Assembly: GCA_004173235.1 (NCBI GenBank)
Contig: SEAC01000027.1
Coordinates: 1-64,000 of the forward strand
Length of the DNA: 64,000 bases
DNA from: Chitinophagaceae bacterium
Lineage (GTDB): Bacteria > Bacteroidota > Bacteroidia > Chitinophagales > Chitinophagaceae
Reading direction: 5' to 3'
The notes under the pieces: generated by a model
What the model saw: only the letters and a program-made list of their open reading frames with translations
Told to the model about the DNA's origin: nothing
The model's database searches: none
Part shown: piece after piece, positions 4,607 to 63,036 of the stretch
Layout: each line of letters starts with the position of its first letter
Position numbering within the stretch: position 1 is the stretch's first letter
Position numbers and translations under genes: made by a program

Positions 4607-4624
4607 AATCGGAATATGTGGCGG

Positions 4625-4632
4625 TAAAAATA
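4625..4632 (-). promoter_or_regulatory. -7 promoter element of accA
   Basis: On the minus strand this reads TATTTTTA, 7 of 8 to TAnnTTTG, 18 bp before the accA ATG. Confidence 0.4.
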
Positions 4633-4660
4633 GGGAATGGACTGCAAAAGAGCCGAAGGA

Positions 4661-4751
4661 CACGTGAATCGTCAATCGTGAATCGTGAAGGCTAACGCCA
4701 GACCAGGTCGCGCATCGCGGCACTCACGATTGACGATTCACGATTCACGTC
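4661..4751. repeat. Inverted pair of 7-mer blocks between accA and accD
   Basis: The left arm (4664-4691) is four 7-mers: GTGAATC, GTCAATC, GTGAATC, GTGAAGG. The right arm (4724-4751) is TCACGAT, TGACGAT, TCACGAT, TCACGTC. The arms are inverted copies of each other built from the same words, but the single variant unit (GTC/GAC) sits at a different place in each. They are separated by about 32 bp with a small CGCG-CAT-CGCG hairpin. The right arm abuts the -7 box of accD. Confidence 0.8.
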
Positions 4752-4759
4752 TATATTTG
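4730..4759 (+). promoter_or_regulatory. accD promoter (-33/-7)
   Basis: TTG at 4730-4732, 19 bp, then TATATTTG at 4752-4759, a full match to TAnnTTTG. The -33 TTG is supplied by the variant unit of the periodic block. The ATG follows 19 bp after the -7 box. Confidence 0.75.
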
Positions 4760-4778
4760 CCCCTAAACTGATTGGCTG

Positions 4779-17993: not shown

Positions 17994-18003
17994 AAGAAAG
18001 ACG

Positions 18004-18120
18004 CACGGAAATCACGGGGCACACGGAATAGCAAAAAAAATGGCTCGCGAGCGAGCCATTTTCACATTATTAATCGCAATTTGTTTCCGTGTATTCCGTC
18101 CCGAAGCTTCGGGATTCCGT
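18004..18120. repeat. 9-mer blocks flanking a terminator (acs/parC)
   Basis: The left arm reads CACGGAAAT, CACGGGGCA, CACGGAATA (18004-18030). The right arm (18085-18120) holds the complementary word TTCCGTGTA, TTCCGTCCC, and a third TTCCGT after a perfect 14-bp palindrome CCCGAAGCTTCGGG (18100-18113). The arms enclose the terminator at 18037-18062. Confidence 0.75.
18037..18062. terminator. Bidirectional terminator between acs and parC
   Basis: AAAATGGCTCGC pairs with GCGAGCCATTTT around a 2-base centre. A-tract and T-tract make it usable on both strands, serving the convergent acs and parC genes. Confidence 0.85.
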
Positions 18121-18127
18121 TCGCGTC

Positions 18128-24226: not shown

Positions 24227-24240
24227 CAGGAGGCTTTTTG

Positions 24241-24371
24241 AGAGAACGAACGCAGATAACGCCTTCGGCGTCTCGCAGATTATTATGATTTGTTATGATT
24301 TGCTTACGCACACTCGACAATTAGCTGCGCTAATCGTATAAATCATAGAAGATCTGCGTTCTTTCTGTCTA
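24241..24371. repeat. Nested inverted repeats between convergent genes
   Basis: Outer arms: AGAGAACGAACGCAGAT (24241-24257) and ATCTGCGTTCTTTCTGTCT (24353-24371). Next pair: TATGATTT (24284 and 24294 region) with AAATCATA (24340-24347). Small hairpins lie inside: ACGCC-TTC-GGCGT (24259-24271) and ATTAGC-TGC-GCTAAT (24319-24333). This is the 3' region of the small gene and of the peptide-binding lipoprotein. Confidence 0.65.
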
Positions 24372-26003
24372 ATCCTGCTGCTTCGTCACGCTCCGCAATT
24401 CCAACAAATTCAACGCATTCGCCGGAAGCCCTTCCACCCCTGGCTGGAGCAGGTGGATCACCATATCGTACCAGAGCGGCACTACAGGCGCGTCGCGCAC
24501 GATGAGCGCATCGGCCTGTTGATAGAGCTTGAAGCGCAGCGCGTCGTTGGGCTCGGCCAGCGCCCGCTCAAAAAGCGCATCAAACTCCGCGCTTTTATAC
24601 CGGGTATAATTGGGAGGCGCCGGGTTTTTCGAATAAAAAACAGAAAGGTAATTTTCGGCATCCGGGTAGTCGGCGATCCAGGAGCCGCGGAAGAACAAGG
24701 CTTTCCCGTTCGCCGTCATGTCGAGCAGGAGCGATTTCTGCACCACATCTACCTGCACCGCTATCCCTACTTCTTCGAGCTGCCGCGCCACGTAGTTGCC
24801 GATCTCGGCATAAACGGGGATCGTTTCGAGGCGTATGGAAGGCGTGGCCTTCCCGCCAAAACCCGCACTGCGCAATAGCTGGCGCGCTCTTTCGGGATCG
24901 TAGGTGTAGCCCCTCACCGCCGCTGAATCGAACGAAGGCATGCCCACAGGCACAAAGCCGCTCTCGGCCGCTGTGCCCAGCGAATTGCGCAGGTAGCGCA
25001 CGAGCCCCCGCCGGTCGATGGCGTAGTTGATGGCCTGCCGCACCGCCCGCTGCGCCGTGGGCGACTGCCGGAACACAGCGCTGGACGTATCCATCAGCAA
25101 ACCGAGGTATTCGATATTGAGGTATTCGTGTTTGTCGAGCCGCACTTTGCTTTGCCACTCCGGCCGCAGCTCGCCCTTGCGCGAAAGCACTTCGTCTTTG
25201 AAAGAAGCATCAATATCATTCAGGAAATCAAGCTTGCCCTGCCGGAACAACAGGAACTCGGTGGCCTTGTTGTCGGCAAAGGAAATGCGCACGCCATCGA
25301 GGTACGGGAGCCGGTTGCCGGACGCGTCCACTTCAAAATAGCGGGGATGCTTTTTCAGGATGAGCGCCTGCCCTTCATCCCAGGCCACAAAATGGAACGG
25401 GCCGCTGCCCACGGGGTGCTTTCGAAAATTCGCCCCGTATTTTTCGATCGCTTCTTTGGGTACGATAGAGCAGTATTGCATGGCCAGGATGCCGAGCACC
25501 GGCTGGTAAGGCTTTCGCAATTTCAATTGAAAAGTGCTGTCGTCAACCGCCACGAAGGGCTGCAGCGAATCTACCTTGTCGCCAAAGATCCATGCTCCGG
25601 GCGAGGCCACCGTTGTGTCGATCAGCCGGTGCAGGCTGTAGGCAACATCGCTGGCGGTGAGGCGGCGCCCCTTGCCCATGGCAAAGCAGGCATCATTGTG
25701 GAAGAACACGTCGGTGCGGAGGTGAAAGGTATATACCGTGCGATCGGACGAAAGCTCCCAGCTACGGGCAACCGAAGGCGCGATGTGCAGCGCCGAATCG
25801 GTTTCCACGAGCGTGTTGTACAACTGGTGCACCGCCCACATGATGCTTTGGTTCCTGGCAAAGGCCGGGTCGAGGGAAGCGATACCAGTAGCTTCGTTGT
25901 AGCGAAAGACATTGGCGGATTCCTTGCCGCCCCGGTAACAGCCTGCCATCCACCCGCATAAAACAGGAAGAACGAAAAGCCAATATTTATGCAAACGGTT
26001 CAT
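24369..26003 (-). CDS. Peptide/nickel-type ABC substrate-binding lipoprotein
   Basis: A 544-residue protein of the SBP_bac_5 (OppA/DppA) family. The lipobox ends at C22 (GWMAGC), so it is membrane-anchored. Family features include SLDPAFARNQ near the start, AVHQLYNTLVETD, the region KHPVGSGPFHFVAWDEG, and QAINYAIDRRGLVRY near residue 320. Family members bind oligopeptides, nickel or other ligands for import. No permease or ATPase genes are adjacent, so the transporter partners are elsewhere or the protein acts alone. Confidence 0.85.
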   Translation of the reverse strand: MNRLHKYWLFVLPVLCGWMAGCYRGGKESANVFRYNEATGIASLDPAFARNQSIMWAVHQLYNTLVETDSALHIAPSVARSWELSSDRTVYTFHLRTDVFFHNDACFAMGKGRRLTASDVAYSLHRLIDTTVASPGAWIFGDKVDSLQPFVAVDDSTFQLKLRKPYQPVLGILAMQYCSIVPKEAIEKYGANFRKHPVGSGPFHFVAWDEGQALILKKHPRYFEVDASGNRLPYLDGVRISFADNKATEFLLFRQGKLDFLNDIDASFKDEVLSRKGELRPEWQSKVRLDKHEYLNIEYLGLLMDTSSAVFRQSPTAQRAVRQAINYAIDRRGLVRYLRNSLGTAAESGFVPVGMPSFDSAAVRGYTYDPERARQLLRSAGFGGKATPSIRLETIPVYAEIGNYVARQLEEVGIAVQVDVVQKSLLLDMTANGKALFFRGSWIADYPDAENYLSVFYSKNPAPPNYTRYKSAEFDALFERALAEPNDALRFKLYQQADALIVRDAPVVPLWYDMVIHLLQPGVEGLPANALNLLELRSVTKQQD

Positions 26004-42356: not shown

Positions 42357-42521
42357 GTGAACCGTCAGCCGTCAGCCGTGAACGATCTCACCCTTCTCGT
42401 GCCCCCTCCCTTCTCCGCAGCGGAGCGGGTTGCCAACGCCAATAACCAAGAACGGAGGCCAATGGCCTCCGTTCTCTATACCGCGCATCGCGAGCTCACG
42501 GCTCACGGCTCACGGTCAGAA
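42357..42521. repeat. Inverted 7-mer blocks around a terminator (S9 peptidase/icd)
   Basis: The left arm (42357-42384) is GTGAACC, GTCAGCC, GTCAGCC, GTGAACG. The right arm (42494-42521) is GCTCACG, GCTCACG, GCTCACG, GTCAGAA. The arms are inverted copies in 7-bp register and enclose the terminator at 42449. The right arm overlaps the stop codon of the S9 peptidase. Confidence 0.85.
42449..42477. terminator. Terminator of the S9 peptidase
   Basis: A 12-bp perfect stem (42449-42460 with 42464-42475) on an AAT loop, nested inside the 7-mer arms. Confidence 0.8.
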
Positions 42522-44707: not shown

Positions 44708-44798
44708 ACGTAGGAAAGCTACGCGGGGCGCGCCTTTTGAAGAGCGGCAAATACTTTAACGGAGCGGAGGGAAAGGAGGCTAAGACGAAGAAGATTCG

Positions 44799-44926
44799 GA
44801 ACCGCAAAGAGAAGAAGAAAAGAAGGTGGTACGCTAAGTTTTATTTCAATAAAACAGCCCCGCCTGCGGCGGGGCTGTTACCATATTTCTTAGCGAAACG
44901 CTTATTCACTTCTTTACTTCGCGGTG
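44799..44926. repeat. Three nested inverted repeats around a terminator
   Basis: Outermost: ACCGCAAAGAGAAGAAG (44801-44817) with CTTCTTTACTTCGCGGT (44909-44925). Middle: CGCTAAG (44832-44838) with CTTAGCG (44889-44895). Inner: the terminator at 44853. This is the same architecture as the other flanked terminators, between the oxoamine synthase and S9 peptidase genes. Confidence 0.75.
44853..44880. terminator. Terminator of the oxoamine synthase gene
   Basis: A 12-bp perfect stem AACAGCCCCGCC / GGCGGGGCTGTT on a TGC loop. A-rich on the left, giving a T-tract for the leftward gene. Confidence 0.85.
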
Positions 44927-44952
44927 AAAAACTCTTTTTCACCTTCTAAACC

Positions 44953-48771: not shown

Positions 48772-48880
48772 GGAACATTTACAGTATTTAGTTTTCAGTT
48801 TTTGAGTGGTAGGACCCATCCCCCAATCCCTTGCCCACGGGAAGGGGAGCGCATCACCCTCACTTCGCCGCGTCAATCGA

Positions 48881-48944
48881 ATTACCCCATTATCCCACCA
48901 CCCCATCACCCTATTACCCCATTATCCCATCACCCCATTCTCCC
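48881..48944. repeat. Eight tandem 8-mers upstream of glmS
   Basis: Exact 8-bp register for 64 bp: ATTACCCC, ATTATCCC, ACCACCCC, ATCACCCT, ATTACCCC, ATTATCCC, ATCACCCC, ATTCTCCC. Four units are themselves repeated as a 32-bp block. It begins 110 bp after the phosphatase stop and ends 65 bp before the glmS ATG. No G-rich inverted arm of matching length is present. Confidence 0.92.
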
Positions 48945-49009
48945 TCCCCTTTGGTGGTCTGCCCGTTTTTACGGAATTTCGCGACCTTAATAACTTATAT
49001 CCCTTCACT

Positions 49010-50845
49010 ATGTGCGGAATCGTTGCCTATATCGGCCCTCGCGAAGCCTACCCAGTAATCTTGAAAGGCCTGAAAAGGCTGGAATACCGGGGCTATGACA
49101 GCGCCGGTGTGGCTTTGCTGGACAAGGATCTGAATGTTTACAAGAAAAAAGGCAAGGTGGCCGACCTCGAGGAAAGCCTTGTTGGAAAGAACCTGCACTC
49201 CCATATCGGCATCGGCCACACCCGTTGGGCTACCCACGGCGAGCCCAATGACCGCAATGCGCACCCTCACCTCTCCGCTTCGGGCAAGCTGGCGATGATT
49301 CACAATGGGATCATCGAAAACTACGCCCAGCTGAAGGAAGACCTGCAGCGCAAAGGCTACGCCTTTAAGAGCGACACCGACACGGAGGTGCTGCTGAACT
49401 TCATCGAAGACATCAAGAACAACCTCGGTTGCCCGCTCGAAGAGGCCGTGCGCGTGGCCCTCAAGCGCGTTGTGGGCGCCTACGTGATCGTGCTGATGGA
49501 CGAGGACACGCCCGACACCATCATCACCGCCCGTAAAGGCTCTCCCCTCGTGATCGGCATCGGCAAGAACGAGCACTTTCTCGCTTCCGATGCATCGCCC
49601 ATCATCGAATACACGAAGGAAGTTGTTTATGTAAACGACTACGAAATCGCAATCATCAAAGCCGACGAGCTCATTCTGAAGAACCTCGGTAACGAGCGCC
49701 AGACGCCATTTATCCAGAAACTCGACATGGAGCTCGCAGCCATCGAAAAAGGCGGTTTCGAGCACTTCATGCTGAAAGAGATCTTCGAGCAGCCGCAAAC
49801 CATCCATGATTGCCTCCGCGGCCGCCTCGATTCCGAGAACGGAACGATCACGATGAGCGGCATTGCAAAGTATGCCGACCAACTGATGAACGCCAACCGC
49901 ATCGTGATGGTAGCCTGCGGCACCAGCTGGCACGCCGGCCTCGTTGCAGAATACATTTTTGAAGAACTGTGCCGCATCAACGTGGAGGTGGAATATGCCT
50001 CCGAGTTCCGCTACCGCAATCCCGTCATCCAGCCCGGCGACGTCATCCTGGCCATCTCGCAAAGCGGTGAAACGGCCGATACGCTCGTTGCCATCGAAAA
50101 CGCGAAGAAGCAAGGCGCCATCATCATGGGCATCGTGAACGTGGTGGGCTCGTCGATTGCCCGCTTGTCGGACACCGGTGCCTATACCCACGCAGGACCG
50201 GAGATCGGCGTAGCATCCACCAAGGCCTTCACAGGCCAGCTGGCGGTGCTCACGATGGTTGCCCTCAAAGTGGCCCTCGAAAAAGGAACGATCACCCACG
50301 AGCGCTTCCTGCAGCTGGTGCGCGAGCTCGATGCCATTCCTGATAAAGTCGCCAAGATCCTCGAGCAGAACGATGCCATCAAGGCGCTTGCAGAAAAATA
50401 CAAGGACGCTTCCAACTGCCTCTACCTCGGTCGCGGCTACAACTTCCCTGTTGCCCTCGAAGGCGCGCTGAAGCTGAAGGAGATCTCCTACATCCATGCC
50501 GAAGGGTATCCTGCTGCCGAAATGAAGCACGGCCCGATCGCGCTTGTAGATGAGAACCTCCCGGTCATATTCATTGCTACTAAAGATTCCTACCACGAGA
50601 AAGTGATCTCCAACATGCAGGAGATCAAGGCGCGGAAAGGCCGCGTGGTGGCCATCATCAACGAAGGCGATACACAGAGCCTCTCGCTTGCCGATGACGT
50701 GATCGTGGTTCCGGAGACCGATGAGATCCTCGCACCGATGCTCAATTGCATCCCCATGCAACTCCTCGCCTACCACATTGGCGTGGCTAAAGGTTTCGAC
50801 GTGGACAAGCCGCGTAACCTCGCCAAGTCGGTAACGGTGGAGTGA
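49010..50845 (+). CDS. glmS: Glutamine-fructose-6-phosphate aminotransferase
   Basis: A 611-residue enzyme making glucosamine-6-phosphate for peptidoglycan and lipid A. The N-terminal glutaminase domain starts MCGIVAYIG; after removal of Met the cysteine is the nucleophile. HTRWATHGEPNDRNAHPH and the two SIS domains (ACGTSWHAGLVAEY, ISQSGETADT, GRGYNFPVALEGALKLKE) follow, ending in KSVTVE. The start is fixed by the need for Cys at position 2; the open frame upstream only translates the 8-mer block. No glmS ribozyme is seen. Confidence 0.96.
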   Translation: MCGIVAYIGPREAYPVILKGLKRLEYRGYDSAGVALLDKDLNVYKKKGKVADLEESLVGKNLHSHIGIGHTRWATHGEPNDRNAHPHLSASGKLAMIHNGIIENYAQLKEDLQRKGYAFKSDTDTEVLLNFIEDIKNNLGCPLEEAVRVALKRVVGAYVIVLMDEDTPDTIITARKGSPLVIGIGKNEHFLASDASPIIEYTKEVVYVNDYEIAIIKADELILKNLGNERQTPFIQKLDMELAAIEKGGFEHFMLKEIFEQPQTIHDCLRGRLDSENGTITMSGIAKYADQLMNANRIVMVACGTSWHAGLVAEYIFEELCRINVEVEYASEFRYRNPVIQPGDVILAISQSGETADTLVAIENAKKQGAIIMGIVNVVGSSIARLSDTGAYTHAGPEIGVASTKAFTGQLAVLTMVALKVALEKGTITHERFLQLVRELDAIPDKVAKILEQNDAIKALAEKYKDASNCLYLGRGYNFPVALEGALKLKEISYIHAEGYPAAEMKHGPIALVDENLPVIFIATKDSYHEKVISNMQEIKARKGRVVAIINEGDTQSLSLADDVIVVPETDEILAPMLNCIPMQLLAYHIGVAKGFDVDKPRNLAKSVTVE

Positions 50846-50966
50846 GGAATAACGAATGCCCAATATCGAAGTGAGACCTTTCCGGATGGAGAGGTCTTTT
50901 TTGTTGGGAGCAGCCCCTCGCCTGGATTCCTTGTTCACTATTCGTTATTCGTTCTTCATTGGGTAT
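50846..50966. repeat. 7-mer blocks flanking the glmS terminator
   Basis: The left arm (50847-50874) reads GAATAAC, GAATGCC, CAATATC, GAAGTGA. The right arm (50934-50961) reads TTCACTA, TTCGTTA, TTCGTTC, TTCATTG. The arms share inverted words (ATAACGAAT, CCCAAT). They enclose the terminator, and the right arm ends 2 bp before the -7 box of the next gene. Confidence 0.8.
50874..50902 (+). terminator. glmS terminator
   Basis: AGACCTTTCC (50874-50883) pairs with GGAGAGGTCT (50888-50897) on a 4-base loop with one G-U pair, followed by six T. Confidence 0.88.
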
Positions 50967-54864: not shown

Positions 54865-54873
54865 AAAATTTAT

Positions 54874-54938
54874 GTCTGATTTCTGACGTCTGATGTCGGA
54901 TATGATTGTAAATCAGACATCCGACATCCTAAATCAGC
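54874..54938. repeat. Inverted 7-mer blocks between era and der
   Basis: The left arm (54874-54901) is GTCTGAT, TTCTGAC, GTCTGAT, GTCGGAT. The right arm (54911-54938) is AATCAGA, CATCCGA, CATCCTA, AATCAGC. Perfect 9-bp pairs are possible twice: 54874-54882 with 54910-54918, and 54892-54900 with 54920-54928. These cross each other, so they are alternatives or a pseudoknot. Confidence 0.85.
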
Positions 54939-54940
54939 GA

Positions 54941-55810
54941 TTAATATCCGTATTCTCTTAACAACAAATCATTCTCGCGCCACTTCGGACGCACTTTCAC
55001 GAACAGCTCGAGGAAGACCTTCGACTGGAGAAACTTTTCAATCTCCGTGCGGGCTTCCGAACCGATCCGCTTGATCATCCGGCCACCCTCGCCCAGGATG
55101 ATGGCCTTCTGCGACTCGCGCTGCACCACGATGATAGCGCCGATCTTGATGAGCGAGCTTTTGTGCTTGAACTCCTGCACCAGCACCGTCGCTTCGTAGG
55201 GGATCTCGTCCTGCAGGTGGTGAAAGATGCGCTCACGCACCATCTCCGCCACGAAGAACTTTTCCGGGAGGTCGGTCATCTCGTCTTCGGCATAAAAGGG
55301 TTCGCCTTCGGGCAGCAGTTCGGTGATGGCCTCCAGTAGCGTGGGAACGCCGTTCTGCGTAAGCGCGGAAAGGGTCACGATCCGCTTTGCATAAGGCTTG
55401 TCGGCAAAAAACGCAAGCGCAGCATCCAGCTGCTCCTTGCGCGCTTTGTCTACCTTGTTGAGCACCAGCACGCACGGCACGCGCAGGCGGAGGGCGGTGA
55501 ATATGGCGTCGTTTTCTTCAAGATTGTCAAGCACATCTACCAGCAAAACGCCAACATCAGCATCTTCCATCGCTCCTTTTACGGCCCCCATCATCCGCTC
55601 GTGCAGCTTGTAGCGCGTTTCGCCGATGATGCCCGGGGTGTCGGAAAAGATGATCTGGTACGCATCGGTGGTCATTATGCCCTTGATGCGGTGGCGGGTG
55701 GTCTGCACTTTGGGCGACACAATGGCGAGCTTCTCCCCGATCAGCGCGTTGAGGAGCGTGCTTTTGCCGGCATTGGGCTTTCCGAAAATGTTGACAAATC
55801 CGACTTTCAT
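54941..55810 (-). CDS. era: GTPase Era, 16S rRNA maturation
   Basis: A 289-residue GTPase: GKPNAGKST (10-18), switch/G3 DTPGI, NKVD, and the C-terminal KH domain with the GxxG-type EGGRMIKRIGSEARTEIEKFL. It binds the 3' end of 16S rRNA during 30S assembly. The ATG at 55810 (MKVGFVNIFGKPNAGKS) is chosen; it lies five bases after a perfect -7 box. The longer open frame upstream is not Era-like. Confidence 0.95.
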   Translation of the reverse strand: MKVGFVNIFGKPNAGKSTLLNALIGEKLAIVSPKVQTTRHRIKGIMTTDAYQIIFSDTPGIIGETRYKLHERMMGAVKGAMEDADVGVLLVDVLDNLEENDAIFTALRLRVPCVLVLNKVDKARKEQLDAALAFFADKPYAKRIVTLSALTQNGVPTLLEAITELLPEGEPFYAEDEMTDLPEKFFVAEMVRERIFHHLQDEIPYEATVLVQEFKHKSSLIKIGAIIVVQRESQKAIILGEGGRMIKRIGSEARTEIEKFLQSKVFLELFVKVRPKWRENDLLLREYGY

Positions 55811-60210: not shown

Positions 60211-60214
60211 CCCC

Positions 60215-60304
60215 GACATCCTCGGGGTGCTTCCCGCCGCAGGCGGGAGGCTGAGATCATACCCGTCGAACCTGATCAGGGTAATGCCTGCGCAGGGAAG
60301 GCTG
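60215..60304 (+). ncRNA. TPP riboswitch (THI element)
   Basis: All conserved blocks are in order: CGGGGTGC, a variable hairpin (CCCGCC/GGCGGG), GGCTGAGA, ACCCGTCGAACCTGATC, and GGTAATGCCTGCGCAGGGAA. It lies in the leader of the TonB receptor gene, about 70 bp before its ATG. No obvious terminator follows, so control is probably at translation initiation. Confidence 0.96.
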
Positions 60305-60371
60305 AACACTTCCTGTTCCACCGCTCCTTATCGCACCCGCATTTCCCTTTCATTTAAAACTGTTTTTTAAA

Positions 60372-62606
60372 ATGAAAAGGACTGCAGCCTCATTCTTCCT
60401 CCTGGCGCCCGCACTGATGGCCGGCGCACAGCAACGAACATCCGACACGCTCGAACTGCTACCCGTAGAAGTACGGAGCACACGCGCATCGGAAAAAGCA
60501 CCGTTCACGCGCACCGATCTTTCGCGGAGCACCATCGAACGCCAGAACCTCGGGCAGGACCTCCCCTTCCTGCTGAACCAAACGCCCTCCACCGTGGTGA
60601 GCTCGGATGCCGGCAACGGCGTGGGCTACACCGGCCTGCGCATCCGCGGCACCGACCTCACGCGGATCAACGTAACGCTCAACGGCATCCCGTACAACGA
60701 CCCGGAGTCGCAAAGCGTTTTCTTTGTCGACCTCCCCGACTTCGCATCATCGGTCTCTTCCATCCAGGTGCAGCGCGGCGTCGGCACTTCATCCAACGGC
60801 CCCGGCGCATTTGGTGCCAGCATCAACCTAAGCACCAACGAGGTGCGCAAAACGGCCTACGCGGAAGCCTTTAACACCTATGGCTCGTTCAACACCTGGA
60901 GAAATACGGTGAAGCTGGGCACCGGCCTGCTCAACGATCACTTCACGTTAGACGCCCGCCTGTCGCGCGTTTCAAGCGATGGATTCGTGGATCGGGGCAG
61001 CAGCAAATTGCAGTCGTATTACCTGTCGGGGGCGTGGCTGGGCAAAGCATCAAGCATCAGGCTCAACGTGTTTTCGGGGAAAGAAAAAACCTACCAGTCG
61101 TGGAATGGCGTGCCCGAGTACAAGCTTTTCTTCAATGCCGACAGCCTGCTCTCGCACTACTACAACAACCTGGGCTCGCTCTATTTCACCGCTGCCGATT
61201 CCGCCAACCTCTTTGGCGCGGATCCACGCCGGTACAACGGGTATCTATACCCCAACCAGACCGACAATTATCGCCAGGATCACTACCAGCTCTTTCTCAA
61301 CCACCGGCTGAAAAGCGGTCTTGCACTGGGCGCGGCCCTCTTTCTCACGCATGGAGAAGGTTATTACGAGGAGTATAAATACGGTCAGAAATTCAGCAGC
61401 TATGGACTCCCGAATTACAGTGCCGGAGGCGGCACTGTCACGCGCACCGATCTCGTTCGCCAGCTTTGGCTCAACAACGATCTGTATGGCGCTACTTTCT
61501 CTGCCGATTGGAAACGCCGGGACCTTGAACTCAACTTCGGTGGCTCATGGAGCGGCTTCGACGGGCATCACTACGGAGTTATTGCTTGGGCGCAGCAGGG
61601 CGTTCCGAAAGATCATGAATGGTATCGCTACCCTGCGCGCAAGAACGATGGGAATGTGTACGCGAAAGTGGGCTACACCTTTGCACGCAACCTCTATGCG
61701 ATGATCGACCTCCAATACCGCAGCGTAAGGCACGCGGTGACGGGTACCCGAAAATTCCCGACCCTTGCCGTCAACCGCACCTGGAATTTCTTCAACCCAA
61801 AAGCGGGGCTGCGCTACCAGGGACGCGGCTACAGCGTATACGCTTCGTATGCTGTGGGTCAGAAGGAGCCCAACCGCACCGACTTTGAAACCGGCGCGGG
61901 CATTTCCGATCCGCAGTCGGAGCAGTTGCACGATGTTGAGCTGGGCGCCGAGCACCGGGGTGAGCGCGCACAGTACGGCATCAACGGCTACTATATGTGG
62001 TACCGCAACCAACTGGTGCTTACGGGCCGTCTCAACGATGTGGGCGAGGCCATCAGGGTCAACGTTCCAAACAGCTATCGACTGGGCGTTGAAGCCTGGG
62101 GCGGCTATCGCGTCAACCGCTGGCTGTCGCTGCAGGGCAACGTGACGGTGAGCAGAAATGTGCTGCGTGATTTCTCGGACTACCTGCCCCGATACGATGT
62201 CAATTTCGATTTCGAAGGATACGATACGATGGCCTTCCGCAATACGCCCATCGCCTTTTCACCCTGGCTTACCAGCGCTGCTACGGTCGTAGTAACGCCA
62301 ATGAAAGGCTTCGAGCTTTCGCTGGTCAGCAAAGGTGTAAGCAAGCAATACCTCGACAACACCGGGAGCGATGCGAAAAAGATCCGCGGCTATTTTGTGC
62401 AGGATGCCGAAGCGCGTTACACGTTTGGAGGAAATTCGGCACGGAGCATCGAGCTTTTCGTGCGTGCCAACAATATCTGGAACAAGCAATACGAATCGAA
62501 TGGCTATACGTATTCCTACAAGTACGACAGCAACCTCGTGCGCGAAAATTTCTACTATCCCATGGCCGGAACGAACGTGATGACGGGTGTGAACATAAGG
62601 TTATGA
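60372..62606 (+). CDS. TonB-dependent outer-membrane receptor, probably for thiamine or a precursor
   Basis: A 744-residue outer-membrane receptor: a short signal peptide (FFLLAPALMAGAQQ), the plug domain (about 30-150, LPVEVRSTRASEKAPFTRTDLSRSTIERQN ... VGYTGLRIRGTDLTRINVTLNGIPYND), and a 22-strand barrel ending in a C-terminal aromatic strand. No carboxypeptidase-like N-terminal extension, so it is a vitamin/metal-type receptor rather than SusC. The TPP riboswitch in its leader ties it to thiamine status, so the cargo is likely thiamine, TPP or a precursor (inference). Confidence 0.9.
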   Translation: MKRTAASFFLLAPALMAGAQQRTSDTLELLPVEVRSTRASEKAPFTRTDLSRSTIERQNLGQDLPFLLNQTPSTVVSSDAGNGVGYTGLRIRGTDLTRINVTLNGIPYNDPESQSVFFVDLPDFASSVSSIQVQRGVGTSSNGPGAFGASINLSTNEVRKTAYAEAFNTYGSFNTWRNTVKLGTGLLNDHFTLDARLSRVSSDGFVDRGSSKLQSYYLSGAWLGKASSIRLNVFSGKEKTYQSWNGVPEYKLFFNADSLLSHYYNNLGSLYFTAADSANLFGADPRRYNGYLYPNQTDNYRQDHYQLFLNHRLKSGLALGAALFLTHGEGYYEEYKYGQKFSSYGLPNYSAGGGTVTRTDLVRQLWLNNDLYGATFSADWKRRDLELNFGGSWSGFDGHHYGVIAWAQQGVPKDHEWYRYPARKNDGNVYAKVGYTFARNLYAMIDLQYRSVRHAVTGTRKFPTLAVNRTWNFFNPKAGLRYQGRGYSVYASYAVGQKEPNRTDFETGAGISDPQSEQLHDVELGAEHRGERAQYGINGYYMWYRNQLVLTGRLNDVGEAIRVNVPNSYRLGVEAWGGYRVNRWLSLQGNVTVSRNVLRDFSDYLPRYDVNFDFEGYDTMAFRNTPIAFSPWLTSAATVVVTPMKGFELSLVSKGVSKQYLDNTGSDAKKIRGYFVQDAEARYTFGGNSARSIELFVRANNIWNKQYESNGYTYSYKYDSNLVRENFYYPMAGTNVMTGVNIRL

Positions 62607-62722
62607 GGAATCAGTACTGAGTAATGAGTGGCTGGCGCCGGTGTTGCCGTATCCGCTTTAATAGACAAGGCGCCGCAGTGCGGCGCCTTGTCTTTACTCA
62701 TTACTCATTACTCATTATTCAT
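62607..62722. repeat. 7-mer arms flanking a terminator (TonB receptor/rhodanese)
   Basis: The right arm (62695-62722) is TACTCAT three times and TATTCAT, in exact 7-bp register. The left arm (62607-62631) is the inverted, partly degenerate ACTGAGTAATGAGT. The strong terminator lies between. The right arm overlaps the rhodanese stop codon. Confidence 0.85.
62664..62695. terminator. Bidirectional terminator (TonB receptor/rhodanese)
   Basis: A 13-bp perfect stem (62664-62676 with 62680-62692) on a 3-base loop, followed by TTT. Confidence 0.88.
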
Positions 62723-63036
62723 TTCTCCACCGGGTACTTTTCCTGCCATGCAAGAATGCCTCCCACCAGGTTGCTGGTGTTCCTGAATCCAAGCTGGTCG
62801 AGCACGAGGGCTGCCATCATGGAGCGGTGACCGCTGCGGCACTGAAGGATTACCTCTTCGTCTTTCAGGTCTTCGAGCTCGTCTACCTGCATCGTCTGGA
62901 TCTTGCCAAGAGGGTACAGCCTGCTGCCGGCAATGTGGCTTTCGGTGTATTCGTGCGGCTCGCGCACGTCGATCAGGTTGATCTTTTCGCCGCGGTCCAT
63001 CCGCGCCTTCAGCTCGTCTACGGAGATGTTGTTCAT
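62719..63036 (-). CDS. Rhodanese-like sulfurtransferase
   Basis: A 105-residue single rhodanese domain with the active cysteine C66 in the loop QCRSGHRS. Cytoplasmic, no signal peptide. Such proteins carry persulfide sulfur (GlpE/PspE type). It lies 16 bp after the PASTA-domain gene on the same strand, so it is likely in its operon. Confidence 0.9.
   Translation of the reverse strand: MNNISVDELKARMDRGEKINLIDVREPHEYTESHIAGSRLYPLGKIQTMQVDELEDLKDEEVILQCRSGHRSMMAALVLDQLGFRNTSNLVGGILAWQEKYPVEK

Follow-up and report, generated by a model that had tools for sequence, protein, structure and literature searches.

Why should a terminator-like hairpin between two bacterial genes be enclosed by a second, wider inverted pair whose arms are rows of short repeated units? 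The question is raised by the first 64 kb of contig 35 (the window in what follows) of a 3.76 Mb genome from the Chitinophagaceae, which on the evidence of a single protein is closest, among named organisms, to Flaviaesturariibacter aridisoli (87%) and F. flavus (78%). A sequence-only reading had pointed to five such sites, beginning near 18004, 42357, 44799, 50846 and 62607, and had suggested that the outer arms form an RNA stem that protects 3' ends, that they block antisense read-through at convergent genes, or that they are the footprint of an element that inserts beside terminators. Arrays of heptamers in bacterial intergenic DNA are a long-standing observation. The reading that we favour, at a probability of roughly 0.57, is that the five sites are copies from a many-family class of dispersed palindromic extragenic elements that would spread in the manner of REPINs or MITEs. 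Such an element is composed of a left arm, an interior and a right arm, the right arm being the left one inverted and the polarity being fixed within a family; the arms, mostly 20-40 nt long, are rows of a degenerate 7- or 8-nt unit with a conserved core and free positions; and in several families the interior contains a terminator-like stem associated with the family of the arms.

Samples and thresholds

The window and 400 kb of contig 22 (C22) together provided 464,000 bases of the home genome, and samples of 495,069 and 482,232 bases were taken from two relatives, G012 and G010; eight further relatives were sampled at 100 kb each. Genes were called with a home-made hexamer scorer. A wide inverted pair was defined by a loop of at least 15 and a score of at least 13, the thresholds for score and periodicity being set by us, and pairs so defined also take in repeats without heptamers, such as the ATTGCGAGG types. 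For the arms of the five sites, the left flank was aligned locally to the reverse complement of the right flank and the score compared with those of 1000 shuffles of the two flanks; the strict terminator scan required 5 T in 8 bases.

The five sites

An ordinary intrinsic terminator stem had been claimed for each site, and an inner stem is indeed present at all five (Table 1), but the strict scan passes only two of them, that at 50873 on the plus strand and that at 18037 on the minus strand; the stems at 42449, 44853 and 62663 are absent from it, their tails being poorer in T. The outer arms held up better. Those at 42357, 44799 and 62607 outscored 1000 of 1000 shuffles and the score at 50846 was equalled by 6 of 1000, so that four of the five beat at least 99% of the shuffles, whereas the arms at 18004 are not significant alone because 103 of 1000 shuffles reach their score. 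Arms of the same CACGGAA type occur at C22 49612, 100833 and 309357, with a stem that by eye resembles that of 18004 at the first and last of these. Left and right arms of a site are largely reverse complements of each other, and each site has units of its own (Table 1). As to unit length, said to be 7 or 9, the arms at 18004 are made of 9-mers, and the inverted pairs of the sampled DNA have mostly 7- or 8-nt units.

Table 1. Positions of arms, stems and related features along the 64-kb window
Feature	Position	Strand	Remark
Left arm, CACGGAA 9-mers	18003..18029	+	weak alone
Inner stem AAAATGGCTCGCGAGCGAGCCATTTT	18037..18062	.	strict terminator scan passed on - strand
Right arm TTTCCGTGTATTCCGT..ATTCCGTTCGCG, broken by palindrome CCCGAAGCTTCGGG	18084..18125	+	insert also at C22:49612
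Left arm, GTGAACC/GTCAGCC heptamers	42357..42384	+	period-7 array
Inner stem AGAACGGAGGCC..GGCCTCCGTTCT, T-poor tail	42449..42475	+	22 other copies share this stem family, with compensatory changes
Mini-hairpin CCGCGCATCGCG between stem and right arm	42481..42492	+	common to many element copies
Right arm, GCTCACG heptamers	42494..42517	+	enters stop codon of minus-strand gene ending 42516
Left arm, CGCTAAG/AAGAAG element	44782..44838	+	same element type in L010, L011
Inner stem AACAGCCCCGCC..GGCGGGGCTGTT	44853..44879	+	fails strict terminator scan
Right arm, CGCTAAG/AAGAAG element	44889..44945	+	
Left arm, GAATAAC heptamers	50847..50870	+	begins 1 base past TGA stop of gene 48806-50845
Inner stem, then T run	50873..50898	+	passes strict terminator scan
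Right arm, TTATTCG heptamers	50934..50957	+	
Left arm, TGAGTAA heptamers	62603..62629	+	TGA stop of gene 60372-62606 in unit register
Inner stem AGACAAGGCGCCGC..GCGGCGCCTTGTCT	62663..62693	+	fails strict terminator scan
Right arm, TTACTCA heptamers	62696..62722	+	extends to stop of convergent gene 62719-63036
CGTGAAT element without inner stem, between divergent genes	4662..4750	.	arms 4662-4688, 4724-4750
Wide pair, AACGCAGAT-type arms	24237..24372	.	arms 24237-24257, 24352-24372
Pair, TCTGATG/GACATCC arms	54868..54945	.	arms 54868-54897, 54916-54945

Abundance of arrays and inverted pairs

Five sites in 64 kb had been judged too many for chance; the phenomenon proved real, and wider than had been stated. 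The 236 intergenic regions of the home sample hold 58 period-7 arrays (0.6 after shuffling), 39 of period 14 (0.2), 16 of period 8 (0.2) and 10 of period 10 (0.6), and 0-3 arrays at each of the remaining periods from 4 to 13. The self-match of intergenic DNA is raised at lags 7, 14 and 21 (0.286, 0.281 and 0.277, most neighbouring lags lying at 0.25-0.27); coding DNA has a 3-base rhythm only, the peaks at 7 and 14 being absent. Wide inverted pairs were found in 40 of 202 regions of the home genome, 48 of 198 in G012 and 55 of 199 in G010, compared with 3, 1 and 2 in shuffled regions and 6, 9 and 10 in chimaeras of two regions' halves, a control in which a whole pair can survive within one half. 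When the left end of a region was matched to its inverted right end, a score of at least 13 was reached in 12.7% of 157 regions, against 0.5% with ends from different regions and 2.5% for same-strand matches. A period of 7 fitted the left arm best in 23 of 40, 22 of 48 and 29 of 55 pairs from the home genome, G012 and G010, and a period of 8 in 5, 5 and 12; arrays of one family less than 300 nt apart were inverted in 35 cases and direct in 4.

The distribution among relatives is patchy. Per 100 kb, period-7 arrays number 13.5 in the home genome, 10.6 in G012, 9.8 in G010, 7 each in G003, G016 and G005, 6 in G011, 2 each in G019 and G025 and none in G024, with 0-1.3 in shuffles; the 19 of G013 include one masked run. 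An inverted partner within 220 nt accompanies 37 of 81 arrays in the home genome, 31 of 60 in G012 and 42 of 69 in G010 (controls in that order: direct partners 14, 4 and 8; reversed 7, 0 and 3), as well as 18 of 24 in G013, 5 of 8 in G003, 4 of 9 in G011, 1 of 8 in G016, 2 of 7 in G005, 1 of 3 in G025 and 0 of 3 in G019.

Genomic position and orthologous sites

The pairs are packed behind genes. Over 191 sides facing a stop codon in the three main samples, the arm edge lies a median of 5 nt from the stop, with 64% within 10 nt, and several elements begin at the stop codon itself; over 137 sides facing a start codon the median is 30 nt, with 17% within 10 nt. The expectation that arms surround terminators as a rule failed: only 33 of the 164 pairs in the three genomes enclose a terminator-like hairpin, 11 have one outside, and no enrichment of these 164 pairs around such hairpins was found. 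Enclosing a hairpin is the property of a subset. Between convergent genes pairs are in fact rarer where there is a terminator-like hairpin (21/79 vs 28/55, p = 0.006); there is no difference in ++ regions (8/50 vs 38/143, p = 0.18), and in -- regions pairs are somewhat commoner with a hairpin (15/41 vs 32/150, p = 0.06). Divergent regions carry pairs in 22 of 165 cases.

Among 383 orthologous sites across the three species, 201 comparisons in which both intergenic regions measure 60-420 nt were counted; three species pairs share sites, and the comparisons are thus not fully independent. Both regions were occupied in 46, one in 49 and neither in 106 (odds ratio 8.2, p = 7e-11). By length strata the joint occupancy has p values of 1.6e-4, 1.3e-5 and 0.08, and by orientation it is significant for ++ and -- and not for +- (p = 0.34) or -+ (p = 0.18). 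Between convergent genes 26 of 41 regions are occupied in either species, between divergent genes 10 and 9 of 57.

A shared site is frequently not a shared family. In 24 of the 46 jointly occupied comparisons the similarity of the arms lies within the 95th percentile of random pairs, and in 22 related arms are kept, which also fits slow descent in place; averaged over the 46, the similarity of orthologous arms is 9.6, and that of random pairs is 5.5. At 4607-4778 of the window the arms are CGTGAAT, whereas G012 has GTGAGCC and G010 has GATCTCA/CAGATGT; the G012 pair scores 12, just below the threshold, and a GTGAATC right arm persists beside its GTGAGCC element. At C22 97999 the three species have three different, partly related 8-mers, and at C22 119171 a single family is kept in all three. 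That both arms change family together between species fits replacement of a whole element as well as it fits selection for pairing. There are 35 comparisons in which the pair threshold is passed by one region that is also longer than its counterpart by 25 nt or more; the counterpart lacks a 7- or 8-nt array in 29 of these and has one in 6. No target-site duplication was seen by eye in these 35 comparisons, whose flanks have diverged.

Stems, arms and sister copies

The stem inside an element tends to go with the family of its arms. Among 39 elements with an inner hairpin (score at least 9, no T run required; 51 same-family non-orthologous pairs in the three samples), the mean similarity of hairpins within families is 10.33, against a null of 6.63 (sd 0.41) and with none of 5000 permutations reaching it, in a test run after the list of hairpins from the interior comparison had been seen. 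A similarity of at least 12 is reached by 18 of 51 same-family pairs and by 31 of 678 others. By eye, GGATGCC or GGAGGCC stems are found in four of seven GTGAGCC-type elements (the others have GGCTGCC, GGAAGCC and GGCAGCC), GGATCGC-like stems in three of four GATNTC elements, GCCATCGC or GGCATCGC stems in three of three CACGCAGAT elements, and CCCGCC-like stems in five CGCTAAG elements.

A 137-nt GTGAGCC element on contig 28, a sister copy of that at 42357, matched many copies in all three genomes in a search that scored no more than 40 candidates per genome. Among the matches listed, 22 near-full-length copies were aligned, the query included, the other 21 being 73-85% identical to it and coming from three species. 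Their common order is left heptamers, GCGCTGACGCC, the AAGAACGGATGCC stem and its partner, a T-rich tail (in 19 of 22), CGCGCATCGCG and right heptamers; the window copy at 42357 aligns with them as a sister with an extra stretch before the stem. In these 22 copies 94.5% of the inner-stem cells are standard pairs, 7 of 14 pairs have changed on both sides, and 20 cells have done so against 4.9 in shuffles. As none of 500 shuffles reached the stem on any covariation measure, it is concluded to be under pairing constraint.

Are the outer arms under such constraint as well? A selected RNA structure, in which the arms pair after the stop codon, protect 3' ends or stop convergent transcripts, and are otherwise free to drift in their letters, is the rival nearest in weight to the favoured reading, and we regard it as unlikely, if deserving of serious attention. 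It would account for the joint occupancy of orthologous sites, for arms that change together where the family has switched, and for the preference for convergent genes and stop codons; the RNA fold of the whole strand is strong (z of -6.9 at 42357 and -6.8 at 62607), although the inner stem is included in it. Its main prediction was not clearly borne out in the one family and 22 copies aligned. In these GTGAGCC arms 87.2% of cells are paired against 85.3% in shuffles (10/500), 12 cells are changed on both sides against 8.6 (36/500), and the covariation score is 0.099 against 0.083 (24/500), all three being slightly above the shuffles, but the pairs changed on both sides, 5 of 21 against 4.4, are matched by 233 of 500 shuffles, and further pair types are no more frequent than in shuffles (267/500). 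The idea that an outer RNA stem protects 3' ends is weakened to this extent: the GTGAGCC arms are complementary mainly because both are built from the same unit, and any additional signal is at most weak. Moreover, a transcript terminated at the inner stem would lose the right arm, pairs also occur in divergent regions, and pairing alone does not require that one unit be used at many sites.

Unit families and polarity

Left-arm units include GTGAGCC, CGTGAAT, TGAGTAA, GAATANC, GATNTCN, GTTTGTN, GGAAGTN, TCAATNT and AGTTTAC, and among the 8-mers ATTGGTTT, GGTAATGT and GGTTCTGA. Where similar arms occur at different sites their polarity is the same in 191 site pairs and opposite in 6 (32:2, 59:0 and 100:4). 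The 19-mer pattern GTGAGCCGTNAGCCGTGAG of the GTGAGCC family, with up to 2 mismatches, matches the home genome 201 times, G012 306 times and G010 41 times, where matches that overlap inside an array are all counted, and each of the other 26 relatives 0-6 times; the reversed pattern has 0, 0 and 1 matches in the three main genomes and at most 7 elsewhere.

Could such arrays have arisen without mobility or function, the 7-nt rows growing by replication slippage and the second arm being an inverted copy templated on a hairpin? An excess of 7-nt arrays in bacteria, with a proposal of slippage, has been published (PMC4692102), and the excess at periods 7, 14 and 21 described above is what it would produce. 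Nevertheless we hold this origin to be very unlikely. One unit recurs at many sites, stems associate with arm families, and the arms of the GTGAGCC family share a non-unit interior at many sites. In five of six families examined, 1-4 freer positions stand beside a conserved core (TGAGTAA is conserved throughout), a variation at particular positions rather than an even one, though the measurement was anchored on the core, which favours the core and thus biases the result in part. A left arm, too, is not more like its own right arm than like arms of its family at other sites. Whole interiors were not clearly more alike within families than otherwise (p = 0.76 in the home genome, 0.046 in G012 and 0.29 in G010), and because neither these nor the arms of one element are closer to each other, the copies vary far more than those of recent transposons.

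Units also differ in a species-typical way. Pairs of adjacent GATxT units are G-G in 25 cases in the home genome, C-C in 25 in G010, and T-T in 11, C-T in 7 and C-C in 7 in G012, so that GATGT is typical of the home genome, GATCT of G010, and GATTT is the most frequent in G012. The 8-mer GGTTCT pair occurs 27 times in G010, once in G012 and not at all in the home sample, and some unit families are confined, or nearly so, to one sample. In 70 of 92 cases an arm is more similar to arms elsewhere in its genome than to as many non-orthologous arms from another genome, and in 20 it is less so (p = 7e-8). If each family were an array of sites bound by its own protein, spaced at 7-8 bp and inverted in pairs, such variants would reflect co-evolution with the binder, and a conserved core with free positions at fixed spacing and polarity would be expected. 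This we consider scarcely probable, given the many families per genome, the absence of some from sister samples and the change of family at about half of the jointly occupied comparisons. Dispersed elements remain the reading that we prefer.

Folded as DNA, eight single arms gave -1.8 to 0 kcal/mol, and between 27 and 200 of 200 shuffles folded equally well. Units such as TGAGTAA, GAATAAC and GTTTGTN are, by eye, without runs of three G. Many units contain TGA or TAA (GTGAGCC, TGAGTAA, GAATAAC), and 7 is not a multiple of 3. That the purpose of the arms might be stop codons in all frames was considered and rejected: CACGGAA, GTTTGTG and AATTCAA contain none, and in the TTGAATA family the stop-bearing strand, by eye, faces outward.

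Candidate enzymes

No recurrent gene between arms was noticed in 1.44 Mb of the three genomes, judged from coordinates rather than by comparison of the enclosed proteins; 19 inverted (of both polarities) and 14 direct pairs of same-family arrays 300-4000 nt apart were considered, and the genes between were listed for the 18 inverted pairs at least 400 nt apart. Y1 (IS200-like) transposases were considered as candidates. Of the 14 Y1 loci found in the three genomes, 3 have an array within about 1.1 kb, in one case at the far edge of that distance, and at 8 the gene is spanned by inverted repeats of other kinds (score 20-41). In the home genome the Y1 genes of contigs 25 and 34 are, by eye, near short GC-rich palindromes, and that of contig 36 is beside a GTTTG array. 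The last (L272) is orthologous to a locus on contig 11 of G012 (L261), their proteins being 77% identical to each other and 35-52% identical to other Y1 proteins; in G012 the gene is flanked by two GTTTNNN arms that match in polarity and are separated by about 2 kb, and at the home locus by related arms. A Y1 or RAYT enzyme as the necessary driver was rejected, as arrays are present in the nominally complete G005 and in G011 (62% complete), in neither of which a Y1 match was found; the flanked locus leaves Y1 as a candidate for the GTTTNNN family.

A true REPIN/RAYT or TIRtron system driven by Y1 would explain the inverted doublets, their dispersal and a place downstream of genes like that of REPs, and the orthologous locus just described speaks for it, but with so few arrays near Y1 genes, other repeats at most of them, arms that hardly fold alone and arrays in a relative without a Y1 match, it is the least probable of the explanations considered.

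How the elements might spread

For the reading as dispersed elements stand the dispersal itself, the sister copies, the polarity, the association of stem and arm, the covariation of the stem, the shared occupancy with turnover of families, the species-typical units and the proximity to stops. Against it stand the mobilising enzyme that was not found, the arrays of G005 without a Y1 match, the absence of any target-site duplication visible by eye, the interiors that were not clearly more alike within families and the lack of enrichment around terminator-like hairpins. Among the three original suggestions, that of an element's footprint has the best support, but with the correction that several families carry the stem rather than insert beside it.

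The arms would be the recognised ends, and elements may copy themselves into, or overwrite one another at, permissive places. In a compact genome such places would be few, lying just behind stop codons and away from promoters, and the removal of copies that harm promoters or coding sequence would leave the elements packed behind stops. A terminator that is carried along could become the ready-made terminator of the host gene, and a later element could replace it. A bolder version holds that self-spreading elements replace terminators, the stems travelling between arms that need only inverted repetition at 7-8 nt and whose letters hardly matter; this is a speculation that we think distinctly unlikely. 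Polarity could then come about if short units were added from a template at each 3' end of opened DNA, in the manner of a telomerase, and with such addition new unit families might arise without a new site-specific transposase.

Relation to known repeats

The closest published parallel is formed by the heptamers GGGAATC of Xanthomonas and GGGGA(C/T)T of Nostoc, which have conserved and free positions and are dispersed between genes (PMC4692102). They lie on average 28 nt from the 5' neighbouring ORF, are rare between divergent ORFs, form inverted pairs in 70 and 75 cases, and in two related species mostly have the same neighbouring genes although their sequence varies; their function is left open there (PMC4692102). 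As in Xanthomonas, the repeats described here are 7-nt arrays between genes with inverted pairs close by, and inverted pairs of heptamer arrays behind genes are thus already known, with a G-rich unit. The difference is that the units treated there are of one G-rich, quadruplex-forming type per organism, whereas units here such as TGAGTAA, GAATAAC and GTTTGTN lack the G runs for a quadruplex; the account in that paper includes no family of enclosed stems and no replacement of units at one site, and the word 'terminator' is missing from its main text (PMC4692102). The TAACTGA direct repeats of Beggiatoaceae, Cyanobacteria and Bacteroidetes share the intergenic heptamer arrays, the patchy distribution and the presence in some Bacteroidetes; in their main organism they lie mostly just upstream of start codons, with one inverted case, and a role in translation has been proposed (PMC4679880).

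REPINs and REP doublets are likewise dispersed, inverted, hairpin-forming doublets of fixed orientation, with several families possible per genome and a place between unidirectional and convergent ORFs; unlike the arms here, which hardly fold, REPs are self-palindromic and carry GTAG or CGTC tags, the GTAG type being associated with a RAYT gene (PMC3116915, PMC3733652). No dedicated transposase was found, and repeats flank Y1 at only one orthologous locus of the 14 loci. With MITEs the elements share terminal inverted repeats, represented by the arms. The inner stem resembles an intrinsic terminator in being GC-rich, in its compensatory changes and in the tail of most aligned copies, and differs in being one component of a larger dispersed element, together with arms, spacers and a mini-hairpin; of the five window stems, three also fall short of the strict T-run threshold.

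Inverted pairs of uptake sequences in Neisseria and Haemophilus are dispersed behind genes and associated with terminators as well. There one fixed species-wide motif is tied to DNA uptake, and the pair itself forms the terminator.

No stem-carrying heptamer element and no heptamer pair from Chitinophagaceae was found in titles and the openings of abstracts, and as far as these go, the coexistence of many unit families, the linkage of arm and stem, and the replacement of units at fixed orthologous sites appear to be new. One genome holds many unit families, some with terminator-like stems of their own, and at orthologous sites that remain occupied one pair of arms gives way to another. As a consequence of this pairwise swapping at occupied sites, it becomes testable whether terminators are spread by elements or inherited in place. 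For comparative transcriptomics it means that homology of the stems cannot be taken for granted at orthologous 3' ends.

Additional observations

At the Rfam gathering thresholds the window matches only tRNA and a TPP riboswitch (RF00059, 71.5 bits) at 60213-60315 on the plus strand, the latter directly before gene 60372-62606, which bears the element at 62607. An array of the 8-mer ATTACCCC lies at 48881-48944, within the called gene 48806-50845 near its start, and the true start codon of this gene may be downstream. The palindrome CCCGAAGCTTCGGG interrupts CACGGAA arms twice, the right arm in the window (18100-18113) and the left arm in the C22 region 49612-49736.

Other repeats were met along the way. 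Another dispersed inverted repeat, GTCATTGCGAGG..GAAGCAATC, which has no heptamer structure, occurs on contig 22 at 66083, 96644 and 275399 and at several sites in G012 and G010. In G010, contig 50 at 136571 and intergenic region 41 of contig 11 hold inverted repeats some 100 nt long, which have ends of the CACCCCCGGCC type and a GGATGCC hairpin as their core; these long repeats are missing at the compared sites of the home genome. A long array of tandem repeats, each about 50 nt (GGCAACAGGCATTGCCTCTCCATTGG...), lies upstream of the Y1 gene on contig 25 of the home genome (L129). Finally, G005 has period-11 arrays (L198-L202) at 9 per 100 kb, against 0 after shuffling and at most 2 in the other relatives sampled.
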